Source of the DNA: Pegea sp. RAD2-039
Lineage: Eukaryota; Chordata; Thaliacea; Salpida; Salpidae
Reading direction: 5' to 3'
Length of the DNA: 64,000 bases
NCBI GenBank assembly: GCA_034620365.1
Contig: JAQGEQ010000159.1
Span: 27,653 to 91,652, forward strand
The stretch's first letter is position 1, and every line of letters starts with the position of its first letter. The translations under genes and the position numbers were made by a program. Positions 286-63,860 of the stretch are shown piece after piece. A model generated the notes under the pieces. The model searched no databases. It saw only the letters and a list, made by a program, of their open reading frames with translations, and had not been told where the DNA came from.

Positions 286-409
286 ACAAAAAATTTTGAT
301 AATCAGATGCAAGAGTGCATCTTCCAAATTAGTATCTTTAATCTAGAACAAAAAATTTTGATAATCAGATGCAAGAGTGCATCTTCCAAATTAGTATCTT
401 TAATCTAGA
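286..409 (+). repeat. Perfect 62-bp tandem duplication
   Basis: Two head-to-tail copies (286-347 and 348-409) appear identical base for base. Each holds the hairpin GATGCAAGAGTGCATC and the trailing TTCCAAATTAGTATC. Other members of the family (2,872; 12,370; 24,986; 27,659) have a single hairpin, so this is a local duplication in one member. Confidence 0.95.
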
Positions 410-490
410 TGAGTAATAAAATGATTTCACTTCTACGTAAGCTTTACGGTTATATATTATCTTCATTCAATCTTACGCTTGTGGTGTCGG
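306..490 (+). repeat. Hairpin-core module (doubled hairpin)
   Basis: Two hairpins GATGCA-AGAG-TGCATC (306-321 and 368-383) precede the core CAATCTTACGCTTGTGG at 468. The gap from the second hairpin to the core is 84 nt, the spacing seen in the other members. The core continues into TGTCGGTAAATTTTTCG. Function unknown. Confidence 0.7.
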
Positions 491-660
491 TAAATTTTTC
501 GATTGCTTTAATCAATCAATAATGTTATAGAAAATTTCATTTTTAACTGAACTTCTATCTTAACGATTATTTTATTTATTTATTCTTCTCAATAGATTAT
601 TTTTTTGTTTTTCTTTATTGTTATATAATATTAAGTTGTAATTAAATCTGAAAATTAAAC

Positions 661-1789
661 AACTTTATAGTGTAAATAGTATTTCATAAAATAGAAATTA
701 AGGGTACATTGGTCAGTGTGATTCTTTAAAAAACTTTATTCTTTTAACTTTTTAGCTGCCAAGTAGCAGTTGAATGTTTTAAAAACAAATTAATTATTAT
801 TATTATACTATTATAAATTATTATGATAAATTACTATTATAAATTATTAAAATATATAAATGATTTGTTGAACAATTGTCGCTAATCGAATCAAAATTTT
901 CATTTGTAAAATCTTATTTAAAAATAATATACAAACAGTTTACTAATAACTAGAGAAAAGTTTTAATAGCGTCAAACTGTTTGAACTAATCCTAAAATGA
1001 AATTAAAGAACTGAAATTAGTTAGAATTTAACTCAAAAAGAGTCTAACAAAACTAATTGCGCCTAATTGTTGAGTCTAACCATCAATTTGGTAATCAACT
1101 GCTTATTGACATCAGCAATTATTAGCAGTCTACAAATGGTAACCTCAACAAAACCCTCGATTAAAAATTTCAAAAAGTTGCTAAATACAATTAAGAATTT
1201 AAAAAAAAGTTTTTAATTTCTGATTTTAGTATTTTTTAAAATAAACCTCTTTTGCGCTAAGTAGCGTAAAATAACAATTTTGAATAACTATTTTTTTAAT
1301 TCATTTCTGCTAAAATATTAAGAATAGAAAGTTTTATAATTATCCAGACTGAAAAATGTGTTTAAAATGTCTGTTTTAAAATTACTAATTTTGCTAAAAC
1401 ATTTTGTTTCATAAAAATTTGTAAACATTCGTTCATTTTATCAGTTACATGTTTTTACGTCAAAAAGTAAATGTTAAACATAAATTACTTTTATGTTGCT
1501 AAATGTAGCAAATTAAAACTCAAAGTAGTCTTAGTACATATTAATCAATTTTCGTTAAAAGTCATTCAAATTCAAACAAATAATAACAGGTTTCTTACAC
1601 TACAATGGATCTTACAACCTTTTTATTTATTATTAATTGATTACAGTTTAGAGTTTTTGGGATCAATTTTAAACTAATAAATTTTGGTAAATTTTATATT
1701 GTTACAATTTTATACTAATTTTGGTTTTACCAATAATTAAGTTACAATAAAAATTGCTTTTCACCTTTAAGTCAAATTTTCTGTGCAAG
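661..1789. other. No gene seen; AT-rich non-coding DNA
   Basis: Nothing coding is supported. The open frame at 1,471-1,677 has AT-driven composition and no recognisable domain. A word GCGCTAAGTAGCGT near 1,254 is a decayed relative of the CCGCTACTTGGCGC word seen elsewhere. Confidence 0.6.
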
Positions 1790-2925
1790 CAGTATATGTC
1801 AACAAATAGTTTATTATTAAAATTATAAAAATATCGTACTCTAACTTTATGCCACAAACTCTAGATTGCAATAACGTTTATAAGTAATGAAAAGTATATC
1901 TTTCAAGCATTTTTTCCTGATAACAAATCGTTTACATAATTTTGAGTTGAAATACTTTTCAACGAAACTTCATTTAAGTGAATCGGTGGAAAATTATAAG
2001 TTAGTACTTTCTAAAAAAATGACAAAACACTTGATTAGTTTATAGTTATTTCCTTTTTATATCGTTTAATCAAAATCATTATATTTCTTCGTCAAGCTCC
2101 ATTTATCAAAAAGTTTAATATCTTCAGTATTCATTCTTTGCAATAAGATTTGACTTATAAGATGGTATGGTGAGATAACACTTATATTGATTTAAAAACA
2201 TCTTCTGATCAAAAGATTAAGGAAATTAAAAGTCATTAAGGAACTAATTTTATATTTTTGAATTAATTGGAAGAATATTTTGATTATTTTTGACCGACAC
2301 GCAGTAGTTTTGAAGTAGTTCACAGATTTTAGATCTATTTATTATTATAGAGAGATTTAAGAGTTGTTGAAATTATAACTCGCATTTTCAATTATTCATT
2401 TTTGATTCAAAGAAAAGATTTATGATGAAACAGTCTTTAAAAACGTCAAATTAAGATTTTAGTTGTTTCTTACTGATCATGAAAAATTTAAAACATATTG
2501 TTTGTATGAAAATTGTTTAGATAGCATAAAATATTCAATGAAGAAAGTAAGGAATTTAATATGTGATGAATCTTAAAATATTTAAAACAAATTAAAAAGA
2601 AAATTACTAACAGCAAACAGAATTTAAAAACCTTCGAGCAATTTAGAGAAAACGCTCAATCCTGATGTTCTTACAAAAAACAATATTAGTTTGTTCGATA
2701 GATATTGGGCAAAAAAACGGTTGTTTGTTAAAAATATTGACTTAAATGCATAACAAAAGATTAAAAGAAAATTTAAGTTATACTTTTTAACAAGGAATTT
2801 GTAAACATCAAACAATCTCAAATAAACGCAAAATCTTATTTTTACCTTGGAAAAAACATACTTGACAACCAGATGCAAAAGTGCATTTTCCAAATTATTA
2901 TCTTAACTTCAAATTACGAGATAAA
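1790..2925 (+). repeat. Segmental duplication, block A1 (pair of 46,860-47,990)
   Basis: The sequence runs colinear with 46,860-47,990: the module on the minus strand, TTATCAAAAAGTTTAATATC, the GATGGTAT..GTGAGATAACAC segment, GACCGACACGCA, and the final hairpin block. Roughly nine of ten bases agree by eye. Part of it also matches 54,805-55,380 in reverse complement. Short open frames inside it are shared with the other copies but decay between them, so they are not genes. Confidence 0.85.
1851..1963 (-). repeat. Hairpin-core module
   Basis: On the minus strand the hairpin GTTGAAAAGTATTTCAAC (1,946-1,963; 7-bp perfect stem, 4-nt loop) is followed after about 75 nt by the core TGCAATCTAGAGTTTGTGGC (1,851-1,870). 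Confidence 0.75.
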
Positions 2926-2995
2926 ACGATTTCATTTCTCCCTAAGCTTTACGGTTATATATAATTTTCATTCAATCTTAGGTTTGTGGTATCGG
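2872..2995 (+). repeat. Hairpin-core module
   Basis: GATGCA-AAAG-TGCATT (2,872-2,887, one terminal mismatch) is followed 85 nt later by CAATCTTAGGTTTGTGG (2,973), then TATCGGTAAATC. Confidence 0.7.
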
Positions 2996-8028: not shown

Positions 8029-8146
8029 GTTGAAAAATATTTCAACTCAAAAATTGGATCAAATAACTATAAACAATAATTCCTAAATAATCCATTGTTA
8101 GTTTTCATGATATATTACTTTGTCGCAATCTAGAGTTTGTGGTATC
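8029..8146 (+). repeat. Hairpin-core module
   Basis: Hairpin GTTGAAAAATATTTCAAC (8,029-8,046, 7-bp perfect stem) then 79 nt, then CAATCTAGAGTTTGTGG (from 8,126) and TATCAACTTCAAACGAATT. This is close to the consensus of the best-preserved subfamily. Confidence 0.75.
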
Positions 8147-9640: not shown

Positions 9641-10939
9641 GTTAACTGGAAAAATAATTTTGGTTAAATAACATAATTCTAATTATAGATTACAACATTG
9701 CTTTAAATTTATTCTAATCAATAATCACAGAATCACTTTATCTGGCATTTTAAACGTGTAATTATTAATTTATTAATTATGAATATTAATTTTGCCGCTT
9801 AGTTTTCTATTTGAACTAGAATTCTGAGTAGAAATACTTAGTTTGCTCAAAAAAAAGTTGTTATTCGTAATTATTAAATGCAATTATATTAAAGGTGTAC
9901 ATCAATGAAATAAACCTCTAAGTATAAATTTTTTGTATATCAACTTTTGTACAGAATAAAAACTCAAGATATTCAACTTATTTAATAAATGAAGTTTTGT
10001 TGAAAAGTATTTTAACTCTAAATTGTTAAGCAGCTAAAAACCAAAATACTGATTGAAATAGTTTTCACCTTTTGCTCATGTGGCAAGCCAACAAATAATT
10101 AAGATGATTTTATTGAGTTTTTTGTTGAATATTTTCCCTTGAGTTAGTATCTGTAATTACGCATAAAATTTTCAGTTTCAATAGAATTGTTAGAATTTTG
10201 AAGAATGAATGAAACAACAACTAAAGCTAATTACATCATTAATTTGATTGAGTAACTGAAATACAAACTTTTGTTATTTGTAGAAATAATTTAACTTAAT
10301 TTTTATTTGTATAAAAAATTGTATTGAATTGCCGAAAATAAAAAATGAATATGAAGAAGTTTAAAAGAGAATTTCTCCTAGCAAACGGAATTGTAAAATA
10401 TCGAGTAATCTTAAGAAAGATGAAATTCGTATCAATTCTTCCGATGAATAAACCTTGTTTGATAAACAGATGCAAATATGTATCTTCCAAATATATTATA
10501 TTTCAATTTTGCTTGTTGCTTCACTCTTCATTTATACACTTATATAATATCGACATAAAATCTGATGTTTGTGGCGTCGTTAAATGTTGCTCATTTTATA
10601 AATACATTTTTAATTTTATTGAAAATATTATTGTGATCAGGATATTATTGGTTTGCTTTAAAATTAGATATCAGTAAAATAATTAATTTACTTTTTTTAG
10701 TTCATAAAAGCTAATTTAAAATTATTCAAACTCTAAACTATTTGTAGTAAGCTTGTAAATGGAGATTTTATTAAGCTAAAATAAAAAAAGTGTAATTAAA
10801 AAAATTGTTGCTAAAAAAGATAGAAAAACATAACATAATTTTATTCACTATATGTATATAAACGAAATATTTTGACTATTGTTTGGAAAAAATTGCTTAA
10901 AAAGCTAAACGGTTAATTATGATAAAGAACAAACAACTT
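9641..10939. other. No gene seen; diverged repeat DNA
   Basis: The stretch contains a weakened hairpin-core module near 10,458-10,580 (GATGCA-AATA-TGTATC, then ATCTGATGTTTGTGG) and resembles 7.5-7.8 kb beyond it. Two overlapping open frames on opposite strands (10,296-10,490 and 10,345-10,677) have no domain or coding composition. Confidence 0.55.
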
Positions 10940-12369
10940 GTAATGATTAATTTTCATGTTTACTTTTCAAAAAAACTTTTCTGAAACTATTTCCAGAAAT
11001 ATTTTGAAGATTAAACCAACAGTATTTCTAAGACTTATAATACTCACAATTTAAAAACAAAAAAAAGATCACATGACTGTTGACTTAGTTTTTTAAAAAC
11101 CTCAACCTGTTAGAATCGCAACAAATAAATTTCTGTTGAAACATCAAAGTAACTTTAAATTAAATAAAACTTCGTAACAAACTTACTTTTAATCTATTTT
11201 TAATCTTAACCTACTTTTGTTTACTACGAAAATAGATTTATAGTCAAGTTTTCTTATCAACTTAAAATCGATTTTTATATTTCAGCATTATCTGTCAACA
11301 AGAAGTTTATTATTGAAACTAGAAAATTTTAATCGTTTGAACTTGATCCCACAAACACTAGATTTCAGAAAAGTTTATAAATAATAAAAAGTACATTAAA
11401 ACTTGAAACTATAAGCTTGATAAAACTGTTTCGAAATTTGGAGTTGAATTAGTTTTCAGCGAAATTAAAATTAAGTAGAATAACTTGAGTTTCTATTCTC
11501 TACAACAAATAACAAAAAAGTAATTTAGTTCAAAGCTTGTAAACATATAGTTACTGACAACGTGATAGAATTTTTAGGAATAAAAAACTTATATTTCAAC
11601 AAAATTAGTATACTACTTATATTCTAGATAAAAAAAAGTAAAATTAATCAGCAAAATATATATTTTTTTGTTTTATATTATTTAACGGAAATCAATCAGT
11701 ATCAGTTCAACAAATCTCTTTTTAATAATCATAAAAGTTCAAATCAATCGACAAATATCAAGAAATTTGAACATTTTTGTTTGTAAGATGAGGAATCATA
11801 TATTATTTTTTCGTTTACAGAATTGTAAACGTTTTAATTATTTAAGGTTAATAATCTAATTTAAAAATAGTAAATTTTTTACTAATATCAACTATCAATT
11901 TATTTTGAATTATTAACATTGACAGTTATATTATAGTTAATAATTTAATGAAAAATATTTTTATTTCGAAATAAGAACTTTGAGGAAAAACTAAAACTTT
12001 AAATTAGATTATCATTTTCAATTGCTGATCTTACAAGAAACCAACTACTAAAGACCTGTAGTCCTTATTCTAATGCTTTGAAGATTTTAGATAAAAGCAT
12101 TTAAAGTTTTTGGTAAAAAGTAACCTGAAAAAGTAAACATGAACCAATCTACAAATTATAAAAATCTGTAAAATATTTTAACAGAAGACTATTGAAGGTT
12201 TAAATATTTGTTGTTGTGCGAACCTTACAAAATAAATTATGAACCATTTTTATTTCATATCTGAAAAACTAAAAATATTTGAAAATTTAAATTACACTTC
12301 TACAAAGAAGATGTAAACATCAAGCAATCAAAAAATTAAGTAAAAGAAAATTAAAATATTTGATAATCA

Positions 12370-12492
12370 GATGCAAAAGTGCATCTTCCAAATAAATAGG
12401 TCGATGGAGAATTAGTAACTAAACGTCTTCACTTACTCGTTAGCTTTACGGTCTTATATTATCTTCATTCAATCTTATGCTTGTGGTATCGG
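12370..12492 (+). repeat. Hairpin-core module
   Basis: Perfect hairpin GATGCA-AAAG-TGCATC (12,370-12,385), 84-nt gap, core CAATCTTATGCTTGTGG (12,470) and TATCGG. Confidence 0.75.
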
Positions 12493-13282: not shown

Positions 13283-13399
13283 TTCGTTGTAAAGTACTTT
13301 AACTACAAATTTTAAAACTTTGCAATCCTTTACGAAAGATTGAGTTTTATTTTACTTTTTATTTCTTATAAACGTTGTTGCAATCTGAAGTGTATGGGA
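13283..13399 (+). repeat. Hairpin-core module, third subfamily
   Basis: The hairpin position holds CGTTGTAAAGTACTTTAAC, still partly self-complementary around AAAGTACTTT. About 75 nt on comes CAATCTGAAGTGTATGGG followed by ATCAAGTTCAAATG. The same form occurs at 3.78, 17.75 (minus), 20.46 (minus) and 26.0 kb. Confidence 0.65.
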
Positions 13400-15043: not shown

Positions 15044-15064
15044 AAAAGAGAATTCAAAAGATTG

Positions 15065-15790
15065 AAACAGATATTAGTGATGCCATCAATAATTATCTTT
15101 GATTAACTGAAGGTTAACTTATTGAAAATTTTGTAACATTATCAGTTATATCTGTACAAAAAAGTAAGGAAGTTGTTTTTATGTCATTTTTTCTGCATTA
15201 TAGAAACTCAAATTAATTAACCTCTTTACTAAATGAATTTTCATTGAACAATGTTTCAACTCCAAATTAGGTTTTTAACAACCGTTGATTTTTCGAGAAA
15301 AGTTTTTATGATTTTTGATTCTTTATCACTTTGTCGTAATCTAAAGTTTGTGGGGTCAAATTTAAACAAATTTATTTTTACAATTTTAATATAAATTTGT
15401 TGTTGATAAACAATGTATTTTTGTAAAGGTTTAAATAAAACATTTTGTATCAAAAATTTGTTTACTCATTAAATAACTTACAAGTTAAAAACTTTTTAAA
15501 CAAACTTCTCTTTCATTTTAATTTAATTATTTATCTTTTAATTAGTTTAAAATTTTCTATCTCGTTTACATTTCTAGGACAACAACCAACAGACTTTATC
15601 GTTTTTGCTTAATTCTGTTTTTGTTTAAATGAAAACTAATTTACAATTAAAGGACAATCAATCCAAATTTGTAAAATATTACACTTGAAACCTTTGTTAG
15701 TTTAAACTTACTTCTTTATAAAAATTTGTAATTTTCTTTTAGTTGTAAACTTCAGTAAAACAAGTTTTAAGAAATTTTATTCTAGGGTAT
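15065..15790 (+). repeat. Young duplication tract (pair of 31,785-32,515)
   Basis: Starts at GAAACAGATATTAGTGATGC and stays nearly identical to 31,785-32,515. A much older relative is at 17,890-18,500. A minus-strand open frame (15,256-15,453) spans the module and is not supported as a gene. Confidence 0.85.
15243..15357 (+). repeat. Hairpin-core module, decayed hairpin
   Basis: ATTGAACAATGTTTCAAC (15,243-15,260) is a weakened stem; about 75 nt later comes TAATCTAAAGTTTGTGGGG. The near-identical copy is at about 31,963-32,078. Confidence 0.6.
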
Positions 15791-20345: not shown

Positions 20346-22610
20346 AATTAAATTGATTAAATGCAAAAAGATTGAGAATCTTAAGATCAAATTTTCAATT
20401 TGAACAATATTTGTCAGGAAAACGCTTATCAAGAAAATTTTTAATTTATTTTCATTTGAGCTTGATCCCATACACTTCAGATGGCAACAACGTTTATAAG
20501 AAATGAAAAGTAAAATAAAACTCAATCTTTCGTAAAGGATTGCAAAGCTGTTTAATTTGTAGTTAAAGTACTTTACAATGAAACTTTAAATAATAAATAA
20601 GTTTAATAACTTTTGTTTTTATTTAATACAAAATATTTTTGTAAAAATGTTATTGGTAATATGACAGATTTTTTACTAATTGAAAACTTTTCATTCAACA
20701 AAATTAGTATATTTCTTTTTTTTATCATTTAATCGAAATCATTAAATATCAGCTCGGCAATTCTTTTTTTATTTCTATCTTGAGATGAAATATCAATTAT
20801 TATTATTTTGTTTCTTAAGTTTAAAAAGTTGTAACTTTTTGCTCTTGATATATCAATTTACAAAAAGTAAAAATGACTTTTATGAATGGAAACTACCAAT
20901 TACCAACCTTTTCTTGATTCTTAAAAAGACGTAAATATTTAAAATTGTCAGAATATATTTTCTGTAAACTTAAAGTAATACCACAAAAATTTTTTAAATA
21001 ATAAAAAATTATTAAAAATTTTTTTTAAAGTGCTTTTTGACAAAAAAAAACCGTCTTGCGCCAAGTAGCGGAAAAAGAAACAGTTGATTTGTTTTTTGTA
21101 GATTTATCTTGTAGTTCTTACTTGTTTACATTTTCTAAAACAATACAGTTTTTAAATAACCACACTGACCAATGTACTACTTATTTTAAATTTTTTAAAT
21201 ACTATTTACACAATAACACATTCAGTTTAAATTAAAATTCAATATTATTTAACGATAATTATAACTAACAAAATTATTCATTGAGAGGAATAAAGAAATA
21301 ACAAAAAACCGTTTAGATAGAAGTTAAGCTAAAAATGATATTATCAATAACATTATCGACTGAATAAAGTGATCAAAAATTTACTGATACCACAAATATA
21401 AGATTGAATGAAGATAATATAATACTGTAAAGCTCACGGGGAAGTTGAGACGTTTATTCACTTGTTCTCCGTCTACCAATTTATTTGGAAGATGCACGTT
21501 TGCATCTGATTATCAAATATTGTAATTTTCTTTTAATTATTTTTTTGATTGCTTGATGTTTACATCTTCTTTGTAGAAGTGTAATTTAAATATTCAAATA
21601 TTTTTAGTTTTTCAGATATGAAATAAAAATGGTTCATAACTTATTTTGTAAGGTTCGCACAACAACAAATATTTAATCCTTCAATAGTCTTCTGTTAAAA
21701 TATTTTACAGATTGTTATAATTTGTAGAATGGTTCATGTTTACTTTTTCAGGTTACTTTTCACCAAAAACTTGAAATACTTTTATCTAAATTCTTCAAAG
21801 CATTAGAATAAGGGCTATAGAACGCTAAATGATTCCTTGTAAGATCAGCAATTAAAAATGATAATCTAATTTAAAGTTTTAGTTTTTCCTCAAAGTTCTT
21901 ATTTCGAAATAAAAATATTTTTCATTAAATTATGAACTATAAGATAACTGTCAATATTTATAATTTAAAAGAAATTGATAGTTGATATTAGTACAAAATT
22001 TACTATTTTAAATTAGTTGGTTAAAATTAAATAATTAAAAAGTTTACAATTTTATAAACGGATAATACTATTTGATATTTCATCTAATGAACAAAAATTT
22101 TCAAATTTCTTGATATTTGTCGATTGATTTGAACTTTTCAAAAAATTGAAAAAGGATTTGTCGAACTGATACTGATTGATTTCCGTTAAATAATATAAAA
22201 CAAAAAATATATATATTTTGCTGAATAATTTTATTTTTTAATCTAAAGTAGAAGTAGAAATACTAATTTTGTTGAAAAAAAAGTTTTGTATTTCTAAACA
22301 TTCTAGCACGTTGTCAGTAACCATGTTTACAAGAGCTTTGAAATATTTTTGTTCTTTGTTGTAGAGCTCAAGTTATTCTACTTAATTATAATTTCATTGA
22401 AAAGTAATTCAACTCCAAATACCAAAATTTTATTAACACGTTTATAGTGTCTAGTTTTAGTGTACTTTTCATTATTTATAAATTTTCTGAAAGCTAGTAT
22501 TTGTGGGATCAAGTTCAAACGATTAAATTTTTCTAGTTTCAATAATAAACTTCTTGTTGACTAATAATGCTGAAATATAAAAAATCGATTTTTAAGTTGA
22601 TAAGGAAAAT
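20300..22610 (-). repeat. Right arm of inverted repeat with 11.3-13.6 kb
   Basis: Reverse complement of 11,300-13,640 with scattered changes. Contains the GCGCCAAGTAGCGG word (21,058-21,071), a module on the minus strand and a core at 20,461 on the minus strand. The open frame 20,295-20,525 spans that core and is a repeat shadow. Confidence 0.75.
21385..21506 (-). repeat. Hairpin-core module
   Basis: On the minus strand GATGCA-AACG-TGCATC (21,491-21,506) is a perfect stem with a changed loop; the core CAATCTTATATTTGTGG lies about 85 nt beyond. Confidence 0.7.
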
Positions 22611-23556: not shown

Positions 23557-26500
23557 TAATGATTAATTTTCATGTTTACTTTTCAAAAAAACTTTTCTGA
23601 AACTATTTCCAGAAATATTTTGAAGATTAAACCAACAGTATTTCTAAGACTTATAATACTCACAATTTAAAAACAAAAAAAAGATCACATGACTGTTGAC
23701 TTAGTTTTTTAAAAACCTCAACCTGTTAGAATCGCAACAAATAAATTTCTGTTGAAACATCAAAGTAACTTTAAATTAAATAAAACTTCGTAACAAACTT
23801 ACTTTTAATCTATTTTTAATCTTAACCTACTTTTGTTTACTACGAAAATAGATTTATAGTCAAGTTTTCTTATCAACTTAAAATCGATTTTTATATTTCA
23901 GCATTATCTGTCAACAAGAAGTTTATTATTGAAACTAGAAAATTTTAATCGTTTGAACTTGATCCCACAAACACTAGATTTCAGAAAAGTTTATAAATAA
24001 TAAAAAGTACATTAAAACTTGAAACTATAAGCTTGATAAAACTGTTTCGAAATTTGGAGTTGAATTAGTTTTCAGCGAAATTAAAATTAAGTAGAATAAC
24101 TTGAGTTTCTATTCTCTACAACAAATAACAAAAAAGTAATTTAGTTCAAAGCTTGTAAACATATAGTTACTGACAACGTGATAGAATTTTTAGGAATAAA
24201 AAGCTTATATTTCAACAAAATTTGTATACTACTTATATTCTAGATAAAAAAAAGTAAAATTAATCAGCAAAATATATATTTTTTTGTTTTATATTATTTA
24301 ACGGAAATCAATCAGTATCAGTTCAACAAATCTCTTTTTAATAATCATAAAAGTTCAAATCAATCGACAAATATCAAGAAATTTGAACATTTTTGTTTGT
24401 AAGATGAGGAATCATATATTATTTTTTCGTTTACAGAATTGTAAACGTTTTAATTATTTAAGGTTAATAATCTAATTTAAAAATAGTAAATTTTTTACTA
24501 ATATCAACTATCAATTTATTTTGAATTATTAACATTGACAGTTATATTATAGTTAATAATTTAATGAAAAATATTTTTATTTCGAAATAAGAACTTTGAG
24601 GAAAAACTAAAACTTTAAATTAGATTATCATTTTCAATTGCTGATCTTACAAGAAACCAACTACTAAAGACCTATAGTCCTTATTCTAATGCTTTGAAGA
24701 TTTTAGATAAAAGCATTTAAAGTTTTTGGTAAAAAGTAACCTGAAAAAGTAAACATGAACCAATCTACAAATTATAAAAATCTGTAAAATATTTTAACAG
24801 AAGACTATTGAAGGTTTAAATATTTGTTGTTGTGCGAACCTTACAAAATAAATTATGAACCATTTTTATTTCATATCTGAAAAACTAAAAATATTTGAAA
24901 ATTTAAATTACACTTCTACAAAGAAGATGTAAACATCAAGCAATCAAAAAATTAAGTAAAAGAAAATTACAATATTTGATAATCAGATGCAAAAGTGCAT
25001 CTTCCAAATAAATAGGTCGATGGAGAATTAGTAACTAAACGTCTTCACTTACTCGTTAGCTTTACGGTCTTATATTATCTTCATTCAATCTTATGCTTGT
25101 GGTATCGGTAAATTTTTCGATTGCTGTATTCAATCGATAATGTTATTGATAATATCATTTTTAGCTGAACTTCTATTTAAACGGTTTTTTTTTATTTCTT
25201 TATTCTTCTCAATGAATAATTTTGTTATTTATAATTATGGTTATATAATATTGAATTCTAATTTAAACTGAATGTTGTATAGTGTAACTAGTATTTAAAA
25301 AATTTAAAATAAATAGTACATTGGTAAGTGTGGTTATTTAAAAACTGTATTGTTTTAGAAAATGTAAACAAGTAAGAACTACGAGATAAATCTACAAAAA
25401 ACAAATCAACTGTTTCTTTTTCCGCTACTTGGCGCTAGACAGTATCTTATGAAAAAAATCTTTAAAAATATATTATTTTTTTATAATTTTAATATTTTTT
25501 TGGTATTAATTTCAGCTTACAGAAAATATTATCTAACATATTTTAATATTTTCATTTTTTATTAATCTAGAAAAGGTTAGTAATTTATATATTTTCCAAT
25601 CATAAAAGTTATTTTTACTCTTTGTAAATTAATATATCGAAAGAAAAAATTCACAACTTTTAAAACTTTAGAAACACAATAATATTTTTTGATATTTCAT
25701 CTCATGATAGAAAAAACAGAATTGCCGAGCTGATATTTAATGATTTCGATTAAATGATAATAAAAAGCAAAATACTAGTTTTGCTGAATGAAAAGTTTTC
25801 ATTTATTAAAAAATCTGTCATATTTCCAATAACATGTTTACAAAAATATTTTGTGATGAATAATAACTCAAGTTATTAAACTTATTTATTATTTACAGTT
25901 TCGTTGTAAAGTACTTTAACTAAAAATTTTAAAACTTTGCAATCCTTTACGAAAGATTGAGTTTTATTTTACTTTTTATTTCTTATAAACGTTGTTGCAA
26001 TCTGAAGTGTATGGGATCAAGTTCAAATGAAACTAATTTTATAATTTTATTGATAAGCATTTTGTTGAGAAATATTGTTCAAATAGAAAATTTGATTTAA
26101 AGTTGATAAGAAAATTTATTTTAAGTTTACTATTATATACACAAAATTAGTTTAATTTTTCTTATGAAGTTTTATTTATTTCAGATTTAAATTTACTTCT
26201 AATTAGAAGACTAAAATTAAAAATGATCAATCGTACTGACGATGAAAAATTAAATCAAAAGCTATGTGAATTTTTGTTTTTAAAAATGAGAGTACTGTAG
26301 GACTTAGAAATCATTTTCGTTTGATCTTCAAACTAATTTGCAATTCATACAAACTATTAAAGTAATTTATCTAGAGATTATTAATGTTCTAGATATTTCT
26401 TCTAAGCCAAGATATTCTATTTGCTAGAGAACGCAAACGATAAAAGCAAAAAGTTAAAATTAATGTTTTTATCTATTAATGTCATAATTTTATATATATA

Positions 26501-31784: not shown

Positions 31785-32515
31785 ATGAAACAGATATTAG
31801 TGATGCCATAAATAATTGTCTTTGATTAACTGAAGGTTAACTTATTGAAAATTTTGTAACATTATCAGTTATATCTGTACAAAAATGTAAGTAAGTTGTT
31901 TTTATGTCATTTTTTCTGCATAATAGAAACTCAAATTAATTAACCTCTTTACTAAATGAATTTTCGTTGAACAATGTTTCAACTCCAAATTAGGTTTTTA
32001 ACAACCATTGATTTTTCGAGAAAAGTTTGTGTGATTTTTCATTCTTTATCACTTTGTCGTAATCTAAAGTTTGTGGGGTCAAGTTTAAACAAATTTATTT
32101 TTACAATTTTAATATAAATTTGTTGTTGATAAACAATGTATTTTTGTAAAGGTTTAAATAAAACATTTTGTATCAAAAATTTGTTTACTCATTAAATAAC
32201 TTACAAGTTAAAAACTTTTTAAACAAACTTCTCTTTCATTTTAATTTAATTATTTATCTTTTAATTAGTTTAAAATTTTCTATCTCGTTTACATTTCTAG
32301 GACAACAACCAACAGACTTTATCGTTTTTGCTTAATTCTGTTTTTCTTTAAATGAAAACTAATTTACAATTAAAGGACAATCAATCCAAATTTGTAAAAT
32401 ATTACACTTGAAACCTTTGTTAGTTTAAACTAACTTCTTTATAAAAATTTGTAATTTTCTTTTAGTTGTAAACTTCAGTAAAACAAGTTTTAAGAAATTT
32501 TATTCTAGGGTATAA
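31785..32515 (+). repeat. Young duplication tract (pair of 15,065-15,790)
   Basis: Nearly identical to 15,065-15,790. Beyond the end it follows the older 18.5-kb relative (TTCTTTCTTAATG..TTAGTCAGCAATCAA) rather than the 15.8-kb copy. Confidence 0.85.
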
Positions 32516-34379: not shown

Positions 34380-34790
34380 CCTCTTAAATACTTATTAACT
34401 AAAATTTTTTTGCGTCAAACCAAAATCAAAACTAATTTGTTTTGATTTATTTTCATTAATAAAAAATGCCGGGCATATTGCCATATGTTTGTAATTTAAA
34501 TTTATTCTCTACGCCACAAACTTTATACTGAAACAACTTTACAAATACTTTTTAAAGCAGTGAACAATTACTTTTTATCAGATATAATATTTCAAGGAAT
34601 AAACAACATTTTGGAGTTGAATAAATTTCAACAAATAATAAAATACTAATAATGTTGACGTGGGCAGTTTAAACTTTCAATTTTGTCGTCAGTTTAAATG
34701 TCCTATTCCGAAGCTACTTGTATTTTTTTATTGATATTAACATTTTTGTGGCTTAAATGTGGAAAGCAGCTTAGAAATTTTATTTTAAAT
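34380..34790 (+). repeat. Repeat with ATGCCGGG word; intact site of the 40.3-kb insertion
   Basis: Matches 40,125-40,285 and then 41,330-41,470, which are separated there by a ~1-kb insertion. Landmarks are CGTCAAACCAAAATCAAAAC, AATGCCGGGCAT, TTTTGGAGTTGAA and TTCCGAAGCTACTTGTATTT. It also holds a minus-strand core at about 34,511. Confidence 0.8.
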
Positions 34791-36867: not shown

Positions 36868-36966
<99 letters not shown>

Positions 36967-37029
36967 CATGATGATGATGATGATGATGATGATGACAAAG
37001 ATGATGAAGATGATGATGATGATGATGAA

Positions 37030-37070
<41 letters not shown>

Positions 37071-38870: not shown

Positions 38871-39400
38871 TTTTAATTTTTGTTGTTGCAATACAAATTT
38901 CAACACTTTGGTAAAACGACAAACCTAATATAATATTATTAAAAATTACATATTTTTATTTATATGAAATAATACAAGTAACGTGCTTAAAATCGAAATA
39001 AAATTTTTATTTTAAGTCGTTATTTCATTTCTCATGAAAAATTAAAACAGCTTATTTAACTGATTTATTAATTAAAATTTCGTTGAAAAATATTTCAACT
39101 CAAAAAATTTATTATTCAAAACTTCCGAGTTAGTTTTCCTCAGTTAGTTTTTCATCATTTATTACTTCGTCACTATCTAGAGTTTGTGATATCAAGTTCA
39201 AACGAATTCTTTTTTAAAGTTGTTATAAAATCGTTAGAATATATCTACAATTAAATAATTTACTTTTTCCTTCATAATAATTAATACATACACATTCAAA
39301 CTTACAATAATTTAAAACTTGTAACAATGTTTTTGTAATTCTAATAAGTGTAAAGTATACCAAAAAAACATAAAATGAAAAACCGAAAAAAATACCTTTT
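38870..39400 (+). repeat. Third copy of the 7.8-8.3 kb repeat
   Basis: Follows 7,795-8,330 and 52,545-53,060: TTGTTGTTGCAATACAAATT, AAGTAACGTG, the module, and TTAAAACTTGTAACAATG. Diverged from both. Confidence 0.8.
39082..39195 (+). repeat. Hairpin-core module
   Basis: Perfect GTTGAAAAATATTTCAAC (39,082-39,099), about 75 nt, then CTATCTAGAGTTTGTGATATC and TTCAAACGAATT (read as two adjoining pieces). Confidence 0.7.
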
Positions 39401-40309
39401 GAGTTTAAACAAATGATGACTAAATTTGCTACATTTTTTTTAATTAGAATTTTTTTAATTTCAGCTTAATAAAATAGCTTAATAACAAAATCCTGGATTA
39501 GTGCTTTTCTCCTTATCGTGATAAATCAGTGTTTAACCCACAAACGCTAGAATCAAAATACTTTTTATTAAGTATTTTTAGGAGTATTTACCATTTGCTT
39601 GCAAAATCGGTAATGCTAGATATCAAATTTAAAGTCGACTAAATGTCGATATAACCATTACTATTGTATTTAAAAATGTTAGTCTCTAATTCATAGATTT
39701 GTATCTGATAGATTCTATTTTGTTCTATAATAATTTTTAACTTTAGTTATTTGAAAGTGTAATTTTATCAAACTAAAACTTCATTATTATTCACAGCAAC
39801 CTTATTTGATTTAACCAATTAAGTGTATCTGTGATTCACAGAAAGAAATCAAAATTAAGATTTATTAAAGAAAGAACAGAACTACTGTAAAAGGAAAAGT
39901 AAAATACAATCAATTCTAAATCAAATCAAATTTTATACAACAAACTAGAATAAGAAGATGAGCAAAGTGAATTTAGAAGTTTAATTTTCAAATTTATCAT
40001 AATTACTTTGCTAAGAATAAATACAAAATGGAAATCTTTATTTTATGATTAATAATCTTAAAATTTTCATATTAATTTGTAACAATAAAAAAAAATTTTT
40101 ATCTGGTAGATCTATTTTACATAAATAATGAAGCATCTTAAGTAATTCTTAACTAAAAATTGTTTTGCATCAAACCAAAAACAAAACTAATTTGTTTCGA
40201 TTTTTTTCAGTAATAAAAAAATGCCGGGTATTGTGGCATACGCTTGTAATTTGAGCGTATTCAGTACGCCAACTTTATAGATACTGATGAAACCAATGAA
40301 AACACACTA

Positions 40310-42493: not shown

Positions 42494-42498
42494 TATGC

Positions 42499-46629: not shown

Positions 46630-47420
46630 AGTTGTTGCAATGTATTCTTTTTATCTTAAAATATTTTTTATTTTATCTAAATAACATTTTTTTATTCTCT
46701 ACTTTTTTTAACTTTGGAGTTATCATGAAGATTCAACTTCTTATAAATATTAGTGAAACGCTTTTGTAGTTCTAACAGCAGTTTTTCTCTATTTAATAGA
46801 GATATGCAAGCATCTTAAAAATTGTTTTTCACATTTAATTCAAATTTTCTGTAATATTTGAAGTAGTATTAGTCAACAAATAGTTTATTATTAAAATTAT
46901 AAGAAATATCGTATTTTAGATCCCACAAACTCTAGATGGCAACAACGTTTATAAGTAATGAAAAGTAGATCTCTCGATCGTTTCTTCGAGATAACAAATT
47001 GTTTACATAATTTTGAGTTGAAATACTTTTCAACGAAACTTTATTCAGTGAATCAGTAGAAAATTTTAATTTTGTATTTTCTAAAAAAATGACAAAACAC
47101 TCGATTAGTTTAAAGTTATTTCCTTTTCATATCGTTTAATCAAAATCATTATATTTTTTCGTCAAACTTCATTTATCAAAAAGTTTAATATCTTCATTAT
47201 TCATTCCTTACAATAAGATTTGACTTATAAGATGGTATCGTGAGATAACACTTATATTGATATAAATACATCTTATGATCAAAAGATTAAGTAAATTAAA
47301 AGTCATTAAGGAACTAATTTTGTATTTTTGAATTAATTGGAAGAATATTTTGATTATTTTTGACCGACACGCAATAGTTTTAATGTAGTTCACAGATTTT
47401 AGATCTATTTATTATTATAG
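46630..47420 (+). repeat. Left arm of ~8.97-kb inverted-repeat structure
   Basis: Reverse complement of 54,805-55,595 with few differences, from TTCTTTTTATCTTAAAATAT inward to the ACAGATTTTAGATC segment. About 0.79 kb per arm, ~7.4 kb between. The inner part is also in block A1. Open frames in the two arms (47,208-47,393 minus; 54,834-55,019 plus) are the same sequence and not a gene. Confidence 0.85.
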
Positions 47421-52779: not shown

Positions 52780-52897
52780 GTTGAAAAATATTTCAACTCA
52801 AAAATTGGATCAAACAATTATAAGCATTATTTACTAAATAATCCATTGTTAGTTTTCATCATATATTACTTTGTCGCAATCTAGAGTTTGTGGCATC
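52780..52897 (+). repeat. Hairpin-core module
   Basis: GTTGAAAAATATTTCAAC (52,780-52,797), 79 nt, CAATCTAGAGTTTGTGG (52,877), then CATCAAGTTCAAACGAATT. Same hairpin and spacing as the A2 copy at 8,029. Confidence 0.75.
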
Positions 52898-54099: not shown

Positions 54100-54804
54100 T
54101 TAGTGTATTTTGGTTGCAACAACAAAACTCTGAAAGTTAATTAGTATTTTATTATACCAGTTTAACAAAATGTACAATTTTTAGATTGGTGCATGTTTCT
54201 TGCTACAAAGCAAATTAATGGTTTTTTCATATTTATTGTTAAAGATTAGTTGATTAAACTTTTTTTAGTAAATAATTTTTAGGCAGGGTTAAATCGTTAA
54301 AAATGAAATTTCAAATTAACTAATTATTAAAAATAACATCAGAATTTATATAACATTTAGTTACCATAATAAACATACTTTCTAATCTTAGCTGCAAATT
54401 TTCTTAACTTAACTAAAATGTATATCTTTAGTAACACTTTTCAATTGGCATTGTTTGAGATTTCAAACTAACTTAAAACAAATTGCTTTATTAGAAGTTA
54501 AAGAAGCTAATATGTTTTGGTATTACATGCAGTAATTTTGTACACCGATTACATTGTACTTTCTTAAAAAATGTTAAACTCGTTTAGATTTCTAGCACCA
54601 CAAACAACAGACTTAAACCATTGTTACATAAACCGATTTTATTCTCTTAAAAAAATCCTGCAATCGAAAGGTTTAAAATACTTATAATTTAGAAACTGCT
54701 AATAGCAGTTGACAAATTTCAAAATAAACTTAATGATTATTTGAACAATTGCTGTTAATCGAATTGTTATTTCATTTAGAAAATATAATTTAAAAGTTAT
54801 ATAC

Positions 54805-55595
54805 ATCTATAATAATAAATAAATCTAAAATCTGTGAACTACATTAAAACTATTGCGTGTCGGTCAAAAATAATCAAAATATTCTTCCAATTAATTCAAA
54901 AATACAAAATTAGTTCCTTAATGACTTTTAATTTCCTTAATCTTTTGATCAGAAGATGTATTTATATCAATATAAGTGTTATCTCACGATACCATCTTAT
55001 AAGTCAAATCTTATTGTAAGGAATGAATAATGAAGATATTAAACTTTTTGATAAATGAAGTTTGACGAAAAAATATAATGATTTTGATTAAACGATATGA
55101 AAAGGAAATAACTTTAAACTAATCAAGTGTTTTGTCATTTTTTTAGAAAATACAAAATTAAAATTTTCTACTGATTCACTGAATAAAGTTTCGTTGAAAA
55201 GTATTTCAACTCAAAATTATGTAAACAATTTGTTATCTCGAAGAAACGATCGAGGGATCTACTTTTCATTACTTATAAACGTTGTTGCCATCTAGAGTTT
55301 GTGGGATCTAAAATACGATATTTCTTATAATTTTAATAATAAACTATTTGTTGACAAATACTACTTCAATTAATACAGAAAATTTGAATTAAATGTGAAA
55401 AATAATTTTTAAGATGCTTGCATATCTCTATTAAATAGAGAAAAACTGCTGTTAGAACTACAAATACGTTTCACTAATATTTATAAGAAGTTGAATCTTC
55501 ATGATAACTCCAAAGTTAAAAAAAGTAGAGAATAGAAAAATGTCAATTAGATAAAATAAAAAATATTTTAAGATAAAAAGAATAAATTGAAACAA
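54805..55595 (-). repeat. Right arm of ~8.97-kb inverted-repeat structure
   Basis: Reverse complement of 46,630-47,420, ending at AGATAAAAAGAATAAATTGA. Few differences from the left arm, so the inversion or duplication is fairly recent compared with A/B. Confidence 0.85.
55193..55308 (+). repeat. Hairpin-core module
   Basis: GTTGAAAAGTATTTCAAC (55,193-55,210), about 77 nt, then GCCATCTAGAGTTTGTGG and GATC. The copy in the right inverted arm. Confidence 0.75.
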
Positions 55596-55936: not shown

Positions 55937-56062
55937 GTTGAAAAACTATTTCAACTCCAAAATTCCAACATTAACTGTCGATTTAGCTGTAAGTAGTAAT
56001 CGAAATTATTAATTTACTTTTGACTATATATAACGTTGTAGTAATCTAGAGTTTGTGGGATC
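55937..56062 (+). repeat. Hairpin-core module
   Basis: GTTGAAA-AACTA-TTTCAAC (55,937-55,955; 5-nt loop), about 87 nt, TAATCTAGAGTTTGTGGG. A second core, CAATCTAGAGTTTGTGGG, follows at about 56,206 without a clear hairpin. Confidence 0.7.
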
Positions 56063-56641: not shown

Positions 56642-56758
56642 GATCCCACAAACTCTAGATTGCAGCAAAGTTTATAAATAAGGAAAAGTACCTCTAGATT
56701 TTGTTATTAATAATAAGATAGTTTATAAATGAATTTTGTAGTTGAAATGCTTTTCAAC
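56642..56758 (-). repeat. Hairpin-core module
   Basis: Minus strand: GTTGAAAAGCATTTCAAC (56,741-56,758), about 75 nt, CAATCTAGAGTTTGTGGG and ATCATGC. The loop is AGCA instead of AGTA. Confidence 0.75.
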
Positions 56759-60330: not shown

Positions 60331-63300
60331 TCAGAATCTTTTGTAAGAAACCTTAGTCATATTTTGCAAATAAAATTAGTATAAAATAATATAAGAATTA
60401 TATAAAAGTTTATTTTTAGTTTTCTATCAATTTTATAACTTTTTTCTTTAAGTCTTCAAACTTACACATTAAAATTTCCATATTCATTATCTCAAATGAA
60501 AAATCAAATTATATATTGATATAATCTGAAAATTAGGAAAAGAAGGATTTGATATCATATTAGTAATTTTATATCTTAAGTAAAAAATTTAGTTTTAATT
60601 ATTGGAAAAGTATGACAGAGAAAATTTGAAGGAAAAAATATATTTATTTCATATTATATATAAGGTATGAGGTTAAAAACATGTTGAAACAAAGTTCTTA
60701 CAAGGCTTTATTTATTCTTAGAATGCTTTTATACTTTCAATTTTGTTTCATTTGAAATCATTATAAAAAAATATTCCTTTAACCAATTTGTTGAGGTAAT
60801 CAATAAGTAAAATTTTACATTAAACTTTACTAGTGCTTAGCTGATTATTATATTTAATTAGTGTTTGTATTAGAAAAATTAAAATTAAAATTTGAAGAAT
60901 AAATTAATGCAGAACAGATTTGAATTATTTTATAATATCCTACAAAATTAAATAAAGTTAAAACTTTTATTGTAAACTTTTTAGAAAAATGTAGAACATC
61001 GCTTTACTGTAAACTATAAAGACTAACTTTACAAAATAAAAGATAATAAAGAAAACTTTAACAAACTGATAGAGTTGTGTTTTAACGTAAAAAAAAGTAA
61101 ACAACTTAAGTGAAATCATAAGAACATAGTGTATAAAGTTCAAAACACAGAAATATCTAATAGATTGAAAAATCTGTATGTCAAAATACTAACAGAGGTT
61201 TTCGGAATAAACAATTGAGCATTAGGTTTTATTTGTTAGTCTTTTATTTTTCATAGTTTTTGAACCAAAAACTCACATCTCTCCAATATTAAATTTATCA
61301 ACATCTTTATCATAAGCTAAAAACTCCAATTTCTTTTTAAACATCAAATTAAAAGTAATTTGAAAACTGACGTAATACTAATTTCAAACACTTTTTGTAT
61401 GAGCTAGTTACAATTATATAATATTTTTTTGAATGAAGTTAAAGTTATTTTTACAACTTCTTATGACTTTTAAAATTTTGCTTTAAATTTCTTTTTGTCA
61501 ACAATAAGCTATAGTTAAAGCTAAAATAATTTTTTTGTTTTAAACCGATGCCGCAAACTATAGATTACGACAAAGAAGTAAATAAGGATATTGGAAAAAT
61601 TCGTTGAAGTGTATTTAATTGTTGTTGTATATACCATTTTGGAGTTGAAATACTTTTCAACGAAAAAAATCAATTAGTAAATAAGTTCAGTAACTTGAGC
61701 TTCCGGTTTATGCAATAGATAAGATAAAAATAATTTAGGTGAAAATGCATTTCGATGTTATAAACATATTGTTAATATTGTTACAGAATGTTTACAAATT
61801 GAAACTTTTTTTGAAACTTGATAAAAAGTGAATTATTTGTCAACAAAATATTTATACTTAAATTAACAAAAAAAGTAATGCTTTTAAATTTATTCCTACA
61901 AACACTAGATTGCACTAAGCTTATGAGAAATGAAAAGTAGAAAAATCTCGATTATATTTAAAGATTTTAAGTTTCCTAGAAATTAAATTTTTTGTATTTC
62001 TATTTAGAATTCAGAATAAGAAAACAAAAAACATTAACAAATATCCATATTTTCTATATCATTAAATCATTAAATGTCATTTCGACAATTCTGTTTGTAA
62101 TCCTCTGGAAAGCTAAACACAGCTGACTAATATCAAGAAAGTTACAAAGATTCTTTCATCAGATAAAAAATCAAAAATATTTGTTCGTTTCTCGATTGTA
62201 AAAATTCTAAATTTCTAAAGTTAAAAATTTAATTTGCAAAAAGTTAAATTTAATGTAATATGAAGTATACTAATGAACATATGAAGTAAAATGAATTACA
62301 AATCTATATTTAGTTATCAACACAAACTAATAAAAATATTTTTAAATAATTTGATTAAAACATTATTGGCTCTCAATTAAAAGTTTTAGAAATTTCTTGC
62401 CTTGAAAAGAAAAATATTTAATAATTATTTTATTTAGGTGAATATTAACAATAAAACCGAAATATATTTAAACAAATTATTTTCAATATATAAACTAGAC
62501 TTTAAAGCTAGAATTCTTTTTGAAGTTCATACAGCACTTTGAAGTAGATATAGGAGATACATAAAAGTAAAAAAAACTTCTTAAGGAGATTTCGGTTGCA
62601 AAAGAAAAAAGATATTAATCAGATTGTGATTTTGTTATCATTATTTAAATAGTAACTAGAAAAAAAAAATTTAAAGTGATCAAATTCCCTAACCACTGAT
62701 ATCGAATAATATTTTAAAACAAAAATTTCTTGAATCAAATATAAGATATAAAAACTAAAATTTATAGAAAAATATTCATTTCAATTTACATCTATATCAA
62801 CAATAAACAATTTTGAGTATTTTTTTTTAAAGTTTCTTGTAAACGCTTAATTACTGAAAAGATACAGATAGTAATAAACTATCTTTGATTTTTATTTTGT
62901 AAAGTTTATCTTTATCAAAAGTTCTTCTTCTTTTCCAAATACAAGAATCATTTTAATCAATAAGAATACATATGTCAAATTATGTTGTTGAAGTTAGTAG
63001 TGTTTAACTTTATTTTATTCAAATAGTTTTAAGTTAAAAAAATAGTTGAAAGTTTAAAAATTTTTACATCTTTTCTATTTATGTGAGAAGAATGTGAAAT
63101 GTATTTCAACAAAAAAAATATTTTGTATGCAACAAATTTGTAATAAATATTTGAAATGATGATTAAAATTTAAAATCAAATTAAGTGGGAAGATTTACCT
63201 TTACAAGGAATTTGCAAACATCAAGCAATCTCAAGAAAACGCAAGACCTTATTTCCTCTAATGAAAAATATTTGTTAGGTAAACATTCACAAATAAGTCA

Positions 63301-63700
63301 AACAGTTTGTAGTTTTGAAATAAACATTGTTTTGTTTTTATATTTGATAGCGCACTCTAGCGGAAATAAAAGCTACAAAGATAAAATGAGATTTTAACAA
63401 AATTTCATTTAGTGTCTTCAGAGAATCTTACTATTGATGTTTAACAACAGTTGTTTAAATATTTTAAAGTCATTAGAGTGAAATTAATTATTCTCTGTTA
63501 AAAACATTTCTATGACGTTTTTTGAAATGTTTTTTTTCTATTTTATTTCTAAGAGCAGAGAGAATAACTGTTTAGACAATTTAAAGTTGTAAGAAAATAT
63601 TCTTATAGAAATAAGACAAATTTAAGAACCGCGGAATAAGTAGTTCAAATTTTTGAAATAATTATATGAAGATTTAGAAAAAATTTAACTCATGAGAAGT
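60331..63700. other. No gene seen; old repeat relics
   Basis: Contains minus-strand cores at about 61,548 and 61,898, a CATCAAGCAATCTCAAG-AAAACGCAAG segment near 63,219 shared with 2,800 and 47,870, and GCGCACTCTAGCGG (63,350-63,363). The frame 63,185-63,397 crosses these repeats and is not a gene. Confidence 0.5.
61548..61661 (-). repeat. Hairpin-core module
   Basis: Minus strand: GTTGAAAAGTATTTCAAC (61,644-61,661), about 75 nt, then TAATCTATAGTTTGCGGC. The hairpin is perfect although the core is mutated. Confidence 0.65.
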
Positions 63701-63745
63701 ACATCTGAAAAAAAAATCAGACTTTAATTTACTAAACAAAATTTC

Positions 63746-63860
63746 GTTGAAAAATATTTCAAATCAAAAATTGGATTGATAAACTACAGGCAATTCCTTA
63801 ATAATGCATTGTTAGTTTTTATGATATATTACTTTGTCGCAATCTAGAGTTTATGGTATC
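63746..63860 (+). repeat. Hairpin-core module
   Basis: GTTGAAAAATATTTCAAA (63,746-63,763, terminal pair lost), 75 nt, CAATCTAGAGTTTATGG (63,839) and TATCAAGTTCAAACGAATT. Confidence 0.7.

Follow-up and report, generated by a model that had tools for sequence, protein, structure and literature searches.

A probable clustered family of Sm-class small-RNA genes with snRNA-type promoters in a salp genome

A 64,000-nucleotide stretch of the AT-rich genome of the salp Pegea sp. RAD2-039 (contig JAQGEQ010000159.1; hereafter the window) holds many copies of a short core sequence accompanied at a nearly constant distance by a small hairpin, which raises the question of what these units encode. The initial annotation had read the hairpin as lying 5' of the core and had suggested a conserved unit with a structural or binding role, such as a small-RNA precursor, an element end or an architectural site. 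We find that hairpin and core very probably represent, in the opposite reading direction, an snRNA-type small-RNA gene, intact or decayed. Judged from their sequence motifs, the units likely belong to a large family of small-RNA genes of the Sm class that lie in clusters, have possibly guide-like 5' ends and in many cases have decayed.

A recurrent unit of core and hairpin

Searches with the core, allowing up to 3 mismatches, recovered 26 matches on both strands of the window, where 100 shuffled sequences gave 0.17 on average. With up to 4 mismatches the first form of the core alone gave 37 sites (0–2 in five shuffles) and the two forms together gave 41, while a profile built from the cores found 40 copies, bearing out the earlier count of more than thirty cores on both strands. 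Perfect stems of 6–7 bp of the (G)TTGAA(A) type accompany 13 members at a gap of 73–86 nt from the core (the initial annotation had reported at least ten members with perfect stems, at gaps mostly of 75–85 nt), and stems of the GATGCA type start about 84 nt from it. A strict pattern of Sm-like site and perfect 6-bp stem occurs 3' of 10 of the 41 core sites (in the direction used here), whereas on the opposite side none of 40 sites shows it, and 0.25% of 4000 random window positions do. A relaxed form of this test is passed 3' of 29 of the 41 sites, on the wrong side of 6 of 40, and also at 18% of random window positions; 12 of the 41 sites lack even the relaxed combination. The recurrent module is real and the hairpin does keep to one fixed side of the core, but the direction in which the two had been read is reversed, the natural one being that of the opposite strand.

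Exact cores form six inverted pairs at a spacing of about 440 bp, and this arrangement, like the large number of copies, would suit a motif at the ends of a transposon, MITE-like or other. We hold such an origin to be most improbable, as the same motif stands upstream of the U1, U2, U6 and RNase MRP-like genes (see below) and the strict Sm-like site and stem lie on one side only. Helitron- or MITE-type ends, and with them the element-end option of the earlier proposal, find little support, and its small-RNA precursor option fits best. A coding exon, with one frame of the core reading LQSRVCGIK by eye, was rejected in view of stops in other copies and of the match of the core to snRNA promoters.

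The core as a probable snRNA promoter element

Read in reverse, as CCCACAAACTCTAGATTG, the core matches the proximal sequence element (PSE) of this genome's own snRNA genes. The U1, U2 and U6 genes were located by Rfam models, without selection for the motif, and CAAACACTAA was found upstream of both U6 and U2 at all eight loci read for each, in U6 (15 matches) as AACACTAA at -57 or -58 and in U2 (19 matches) with the PSE at -52. All four U1 loci read, of 19 matches, have a close variant, in which CAAACA is followed by varied sequence and then by TATAA at -28 to -30, and an RNase MRP-like gene is also preceded by the PSE. The window units carry the variant CTCTAGATTG, as against CACTAARCTT at U2 and U6. 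Reversed-pattern controls for the PSE searches gave 0 matches. What fits these observations best is that the core is a promoter element, the PSE, lying outside the RNA, and that the hairpin would form the 3' end of the predicted RNA.

The distance from PSE to TATA box is 31–33 in U6 and 33 in the MRP-like gene, and 26–28 in U1 and 27–28 in U2. Among 34 representatives of the modules, a set that includes five chance matches, half (17) have no recognised TATA-like box; in the 17 having one it lies 25–29 from the PSE in 15 and at other distances (36, 40) in two. On contig C102 the distance is 24–25, and on C188 and C224 it is 26. The TATA-like box of the modules, where present, is at the U1/U2 (Pol II-type) and not the U6 (Pol III-type) spacing. 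Pol III is expected to stop at runs of T4–T6, such as occur within the Sm-like sites of some units.

The predicted RNA

The order of parts in the module is an upstream element (TTGTCAACAA, present in about half of the representatives), the PSE, a TATA-like box, a 5' part, an Sm-like site (RAU3-6GR) about 90 nt after the PSE, and a 3' stem-loop (Table 1). The Sm-like sites range from AAUUUGGA to AAUUUUUUGA, the U-run having 3 to 6 residues while both edges stay unchanged. An RAU3-6GR site followed by a 3' stem-loop is the arrangement by which Sm-class RNAs are recognised, and it would place the predicted RNA in that class. The stems GTTGAA/TTCAAC and GATGCA/TGCATC, earlier regarded as unrelated, are not so: both are found at one place next to a shared Sm-like site, and by eye two of their six pairs are altered on either strand of the stem. 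Further stem classes exist, the classes differing on both sides of the stem, and one large family has the imperfect stem GTTAAAG...CTTTACAAC.

From the spacing of PSE, Sm-like site and hairpin, an Sm-class RNA of about 46–64 nt with an unstructured 5' part is therefore predicted. SNAPc would bind the PSE, RNA polymerase II would start about 58 nt downstream of the PSE start and make a capped RNA of this length, and an Sm ring would load beside the 3' stem-loop and stabilise the RNA. The exposed 5' part (about 20–45 nt) might then base-pair with a target, in the manner of U7 snRNA, or alternatively be excised to act as a guide, like the products of nematode piRNA genes. Transcription, start site, polymerase, Sm binding and targeting are in each case predictions made from the DNA; that an Sm-class RNA is produced from at least a subset of the units appears probable. 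RNAalifold gave no consensus fold for the whole module on either strand.

Table 1. Units in the window, comprising 26 of the 29 sites that pass the relaxed test (1644, 19495 and 31674, whose pairing is weak, are not listed)
Feature	Position	Strand	PSE	Sm-like site	Stem	Remark
unit	367..484	-	468-484	AATTTGG	AGATGCA/TGCATCT	
unit	1852..1963	+	1852-1868 (exact)	AATTTTGA	GTTGAAA/TTTCAAC	TATA-like TTTATAAG
unit	2873..2989	-	2973-2989	AATTTGG	ATGCA/TGCAT	another scoring preferred weaker pairing
unit	8029..8142	-	8126-8142 (exact)	AATTTTTGA	GTTGAAA/TTTCAAC	
unit	10468..10574	-	10558-10574	ATTTGG	AGATACA/TGCATCT	imperfect stem
unit	11349..11460	+	11349-11365	AATTTGG	GTTGAA/TTCAGC	wobble
unit	12369..12486	-	12470-12486		AGATGCA/TGCATCT	
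unit	15243..15353	-	15337-15353	AATTTGG	GTTGAA/TTCAAT	wobble
unit	21390..21507	+	21390-21406		AGATGCA/TGCATCT	
unit	22396..22506	-	22490-22506		GTTGAA/TTCAAT	wobble
unit	23965..24076	+				copy of 11349-11460 within 98% duplicated block
unit	24985..25102	-				copy of 12369-12486
unit	28998..29115	+	28998-29014	degenerate	AGATGTA/TGCATCT	wobble
unit	29824..29941	+	29824-29840	degenerate	GTTGAA/TTCAAC	
unit	31966..32076	-	32060-32076	AATTTGG	GTTGAA/TTCAAC	
unit	34514..34632	+	34514-34530	ATTTTGG	GTTGAA/TTCAAC	
unit	39082..39189	-	39173-39189	AATTTTTTGA	GTTGAAA/TTTCAAC	
unit	39538..39650	+	39538-39554	degenerate	class GTCGAC/GTCGAT	
unit	46923..47034	+	46923-46939	AATTTTGA	GTTGAAA/TTTCAAC	
unit	52780..52893	-	52877-52893 (exact)	AATTTTTGA	GTTGAAA/TTTCAAC	
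weak unit	54598..54710	+	PSE-like (4 mismatches)	degenerate	class AACTGCT/AGCAGTT	
unit	55193..55304	-	55288-55304	AATTTTGA	GTTGAAA/TTTCAAC	
unit, family 4	55937..56058	-	56042-56058	AATTTTGG	GTTGAAA/TTTCAAC	hypervariable 5' part
unit	56646..56758	+	56646-56662 (exact)	AATTTTG (incomplete)	GTTGAAA/TTTCAAC	missed by stricter scan
unit	61551..61661	+	61551-61567	ATTTTGG	GTTGAAA/TTTCAAC	
unit	63747..63856	-	63840-63856	AATTTTTGA	TTGAAA/TTTCAA	

Recurrence outside the window

Genome-wide, one class of Sm-like site and stem gave 302 exact matches, as against 1 for the reversed control. The canonical PSE with TATA box occurs at 24 distinct genome sites, 11 of them at U2 or U6 genes, and the other 13 were all read. 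Loci on C102 picked by the PSE have an Sm-like site and a GTTGAA stem in 5 of 5 cases, and those on C188 and C224 a 3' stem of the AACCGC type in 6 of 6, preceded in five of the six by ATTTGG, without the leading purine of the full Sm site; the last two comprise one RNase MRP-like gene and one site (C26) of neither type. Conversely, six loci picked by Sm-like site and hairpin were read (four on C92, one each on C23 and C91), and five have a PSE and a TATA-like box upstream, one of these PSEs being cut by the end of the fetched DNA; the sixth, L109 on C92, has no PSE upstream. The link between the PSE and the Sm-like site with hairpin holds both ways outside the window. Confinement of the modules to a few contigs (12 or 11 in two scans) was considered and rejected, the same RNA core being found elsewhere with other PSE forms, and the same architecture recurs with different loops on several contigs. 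No Rfam family was found at cut-off within the modules; sub-threshold snoRNA matches lie over one unit (21429-21554; 28.6 bits, E 1.4) and over one C102 locus (24.9 bits, E 0.99).

Divergence between and within families

Recent segmental copying of the units is real, large blocks of the window being duplicated at 88–98%, and four families of 22–68 units are present in the fetched DNA. Both observations would agree with snRNA-type pseudogene repeats, in which an ancestral gene was carried in segmental duplications and its copies are mostly or all inert, with PSE, Sm-like site and stem as relics of an earlier period of function; so would the many units without TATA-like box or without Sm-like site and hairpin. 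We nevertheless consider this account unlikely. Between families, pairwise identity is 0.77 in the PSE and 0.86 at the start of the Sm-like site, as against 0.28–0.47 in all other stretches, the two high values being partly by construction because the rows were chosen for PSE and for Sm-like site with hairpin. For this comparison five of the 34 representatives, judged to be chance matches, were taken out manually (two from C109, one each from C287, C104 and C286), and one of the remaining 29 was skipped in one comparison for a missing flank. The persistence of PSE, Sm-like site and stems across families that otherwise hardly align, and of the same architecture with different loops on several contigs, argues against mere relics.

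The divergence scan of the clusters, whose values follow, joins sub-families and was therefore repeated with stricter rows (33 of 68, 36 of 41, 22 of 32, 22 of 22 and 9 of 10 units, identical, cut or divergent ones being removed); the values for the 5' part given further below come from this repeat. Taken together, PSE, Sm-like site and stem diverge less than the rest in three of four clusters (0.073 versus 0.215, 0.088 versus 0.141 and 0.066 versus 0.169), which also speaks against pseudogene repeats, whereas cluster 3 (22 units) shows the uniform decay that such repeats would lead one to expect (elements 0.070, rest 0.072). For the hairpin of cluster 1 the divergence (0.147) is as high as in the sequence around it, and when ranked among equal windows the Sm-like sites of clusters 1 and 2 reach no lower than the 30th and 35th percentile. 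A uniform decay from a single recent ancestor, which the initial annotation had named as the finding that would speak against it, is thus absent between families, with the reservation on row selection given above, and present within one cluster of 22. Many copies have spread by segmental duplication and are probably dead, as the preferred reading of a partly decayed family of Sm-class RNA genes includes.

The 5' part and comparison with known systems

In two of the five window-type families, family 4 (0.237 versus 0.013–0.081 elsewhere) and family 0 (0.157 versus 0.060–0.113), no stretch varies more than the 5' part, and the same holds on C102, where the identity of the 5' part is 0.44 versus 0.77–0.80 in the flanks; in families 1–3 it is not hypervariable (percentiles 0.61, 0.52 and 0.29). 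Its degree of structure does not exceed that of shuffled controls (mean z 0.16, 15 units). When 5' parts were compared with other fetched DNA, an amount too small for a target search, the first 15 of 80 matching words were inverted copies inside units. That the 5' end is guide-like has, in our estimate, slightly less than an even chance.

A guide might also be of the Piwi type, the 5' part being released as a piRNA-like guide of about 25–30 nt with the Sm-like site and hairpin as terminator or processing signals only, an independent parallel to the type I (Ruby motif/SNAPc-driven) piRNA genes of nematodes. According to excerpts of PMC6436959, the nematode genes have snRNA-derived promoters, form large clusters (two regions of about 3 Mb in C. 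elegans) and yield short Pol II transcripts with varying guides; capped precursors of 28 nt are described in PMC7917550. The units resemble them in their snRNA-type promoter, their clustering on contigs and their unstructured and partly variable 5' part, but the excerpts of PMC6436959 describe neither an Sm site nor a 3' stem-loop downstream. Moreover, the fetched DNA yielded only 99 distinct 5' parts, many in related families. Type I piRNA genes are known from nematodes, and no exact nematode SL1 exon is present in this genome, a result with which a nematode with a changed SL1 would still be compatible. We give the Piwi-type account little credence.

A role in trans-splicing, as spliced-leader or SmY-like RNAs, seems remote. 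Both classes combine an Sm site with stem-loops, Hydra spliced leaders using AAUUUUGA as Sm site (PMC7986045 and PMC11229312), and spliced-leader arrays are, like the units, multi-copy Sm-class RNA genes (110 in S. mansoni, nearly all clustered on one chromosome). Such arrays share one leader exon, followed by a GT donor, whereas no common 5' sequence was found in the units, whose 5' parts change from family to family and in some vary more than any other segment, and no constant GT donor was seen by eye; this speaks against a spliced leader. SmY RNAs are also small, with stem-loops flanking the Sm site, but according to PMC11229312 they are encoded by 12 genes in C. elegans and have a first stem-loop that is conserved, unlike the unstructured, family-specific 5' part here. 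An SmY-like 5' stem-loop finds no support in the mean z of 0.16, and no Rfam match to SmY was found in the modules. Drosophila LU snRNA is likewise an additional member of the Sm class, identified from its PSE, its Sm site and the covariation in its terminal stem-loops, but is a single gene of 116 nt with two stem-loops (PMC4053861).

U7 is absent among the Rfam matches of the window. U7 snRNA, at about 60 nt, resembles the predicted RNAs in size, Sm site and 3' stem-loop, and its 5' antisense part would correspond to their putative guide, but it is a few-copy RNA with a fixed 5' end, as against hundreds of loci with differing 5' parts here. In animal genomes the Sm-class RNA genes driven by a PSE normally number some dozens and have fixed functions, and hundreds of such genes with changing 5' ends would, if true, constitute a new small-RNA system. 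This would suggest co-option of snRNA promoters for guide repertoires outside nematodes, and would supply naturally occurring cases of the antisense design behind U7 SmOPT vectors. We offer only as a speculation, more doubtful than not, that an apparently non-nematode animal has its own genome-encoded guide repertoire, with hundreds of snRNA-promoter genes in contig clusters giving Sm RNPs of about 60 nt with variable 5' guides; the analogy by which this repertoire would amount to a naturally occurring library of U7-SmOPT antisense RNAs is equally tentative. Should most copies prove dead, they would still make it possible to read and test the snRNA promoter code of this genome. The natural U7 Sm site, AAUUUGUCUAG, differs from the canonical Sm-like sites of the units, and three of the five C102 copies read carry AATTTTTGGAG, which equals the SmOpt sequence AAUUUUUGGAG of U7 SmOPT RNAs (both U7 sequences from PMC11232981).

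The repeated core as a proximal sequence element

The window holds 26 copies of the core CAATCTAGAGTTTGTGG at up to 3 mismatches (0.17 expected), and a profile search recovered 40. The initial annotation had described a hairpin lying at a nearly fixed distance of about 80 nt from this core, and its main points proved correct: in 13 members a perfect (G)TTGAA(A)-type hairpin of 6–7 bp lies 73–86 nt away, and GATGCA-type hairpins lie at about 84 nt. Read in reverse the core becomes CCCACAAACTCTAGATTG, followed in many units by the TATA-like TTTATAAG, and we therefore examined the genome's own snRNA genes for this motif. The ordinary U1, U2 and U6 genes are present, and were located with Rfam models, independently of the core. 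All eight U6 loci read carry CAAACACTAAAC with AACACTAA at -57 or -58, and their TATA-like box lies at -30 to -32. In all eight U2 loci read, AACACTAA lies at -52 and the TATA-like box at -29. At the four U1 loci read, CAAACA is followed by CAAAACTT, TAAAACTT, CTAAAAAT or GCAAACTT, and TATAA lies at -28 to -30. Searching for the motif together with the TATA box also matched an RNase MRP-like gene, whose score of 30.9 bits (E 1.2e-6) falls short of the family cut-off of 50. Because the U6, U2, U1 and MRP-like promoters all carry the motif, the core is a variant form of this genome's proximal sequence element (PSE). The variant is distinguished by CTCTAGATT in the window units, as against CACTAARCTT at U2 and U6. 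The canonical PSE with TATA occurs at 24 distinct exact sites, and is absent from all 12 contigs on which exact copies of the window core are found.

Several sequence variants were seen among the U1 genes on contigs C40 and C39 (loci L092, L093 and L095), and three of the four U1 promoters read have GTGACGTCA directly 5' of the PSE, a possible distal element.

Architecture of the units

Measured from the PSE start, the TATA-like box lies at about 27, the inferred RNA start at about 58 and the Sm-like site mostly at about 79–105, with the hairpin adjoining it on the 3' side. The Sm-like sites take RAU3-6GR forms (AATTTGG, AATTTTGA, AATTTTTGA and AATTTTTTGA). Predicted RNAs from 15 units are 46–64 nt long with a 5' part of 20–37 nt, which is unstructured; family 4 has a longer form, in which it is predicted to reach about 44 nt. 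Pairing is kept despite the sequence differences among the stem classes, namely GTTGAAA/TTTCAAC, AGATGCA/TGCATCT, GTCGAC/GTCGAT, AACTGA/TCAGTT, AACTGCT/AGCAGTT and ATCGACA/TGTCGAT. A strict Sm site with stem was found at 10 of 41 PSE sites, many of them duplication-related and not independent, compared with 0.25% of random positions and none of 40 on the wrong side.

The PSE-to-TATA distance is 31–33 at U6 and the MRP-like gene versus 26–28 at U1 and U2, and it groups 15 of the 17 modules having a TATA-like box with U1/U2; in 17 more no such box was recognised. Counted from the PSE, an upstream element, TTGTCAACAA, lies at -56 to -66 in 13 of 28 representatives, differing there by no more than one mismatch, and no match nearly as good was seen upstream of U2 and U6 (9/16 loci tested).

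Recurrence on other contigs

The Sm-plus-stem pattern gave 302 matches genome-wide against one for the reversed control, and the full PSE–gap–stem pattern gave 42 on 11 contigs against none. Among the Sm-plus-stem matches listed (100 places, up to C109, the window's own contig), at least 50 lie on C102, on both strands, at least nine on C64, eight on C104 and four on C23, with at least one or two on each of six other contigs. All five C102 loci picked by canonical PSE and TATA run on into an Sm-like site and a GTTGAA stem, and conversely five of the six loci read that were picked by Sm site and stem alone (on C92, C23 and C91) have a PSE and a TATA-like box upstream. On C92, at least 21 units with Sm site and GTTGAA..TTCAAC stem, all those listed being on the same strand, are spread across half a megabase (122–638 kb), and the copies read have unrelated 5' parts. 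Six loci picked by canonical PSE and TATA on C188 and C224 (L101–L106) represent a second family, also PSE-driven, whose 3' stem is of another kind (AACCGC/GCGGTT) and is preceded by ATTTGG(A) in five of them. Thus, the putative small-RNA family extends beyond the window, in clusters each with its own loop sequences.

Constraint, variability and the predicted product

Cross-family identity is 0.77 at the PSE and 0.86 at the start of the Sm site against 0.28–0.47 elsewhere, values that are partly built in by the choice of rows, and a less selected comparison gives a similar picture. Within three of the four clusters, the elements taken together diverge less than the remaining sequence, although single elements do not always do so. 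Variability peaks in the 5' part in families 4 and 0, on C102 and, by eye in three copies, on C92; this is not so in families 1–3. In family 4, nearly identical flanks enclose two different 5' parts.

Most likely, SNAPc and Pol II would drive these genes, yielding an Sm RNA of about 46–64 nt with an exposed 5' end. Judged from sequence, that end may act as a U7-like antisense arm or a released, piRNA-like guide, or may have no role. It is a serious alternative that many individual copies are pseudogenes. A large family of Sm-class small RNAs whose 5' ends vary was not seen in the portions consulted of open-licence literature, including PMC1925144, PMC7986045, PMC6436959, PMC4053861, PMC11229312, PMC11232981 and PMC7917550; as the coverage is of open-licence papers only, this is weak evidence of novelty.

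Setting of the window

The genome comprises 105.7 Mb in 387 contigs. GC content is about 19–23% across most of the window and 26–29% in parts of the 36–50 kb interval. Pieces of C2H2 zinc-finger and reverse-transcriptase sequence were detected and, with the ordinary U1, U2 and U6 genes, point to an animal. Large blocks of the window are duplicated at 88–98% identity.

Features of the window other than the units
Feature	Position	Remarks
Duplication pair	10941-15064 and 23557-27685	98% identity
Inverted copy of part of this duplication	20380-22611	88% identity
Long ATG trinucleotide tract	36749-37103	118 copies; poly-Asp coding possible in one frame
tRNA-Met and tRNA-His, five bases apart, plus tRNA-Leu	42422-42570 and 43691-43772	in GC-richer, module-free part
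Reverse transcriptase fragments	48197-49092	inside duplicated block; one piece matches RVT_1

Elsewhere in this AT-rich genome, a locus on C200 (L072, positions 3001-5000) has a tandem GACGTCATCATTACGCGATGG-type repeat in a long open frame, with a GC content of 42.6%.
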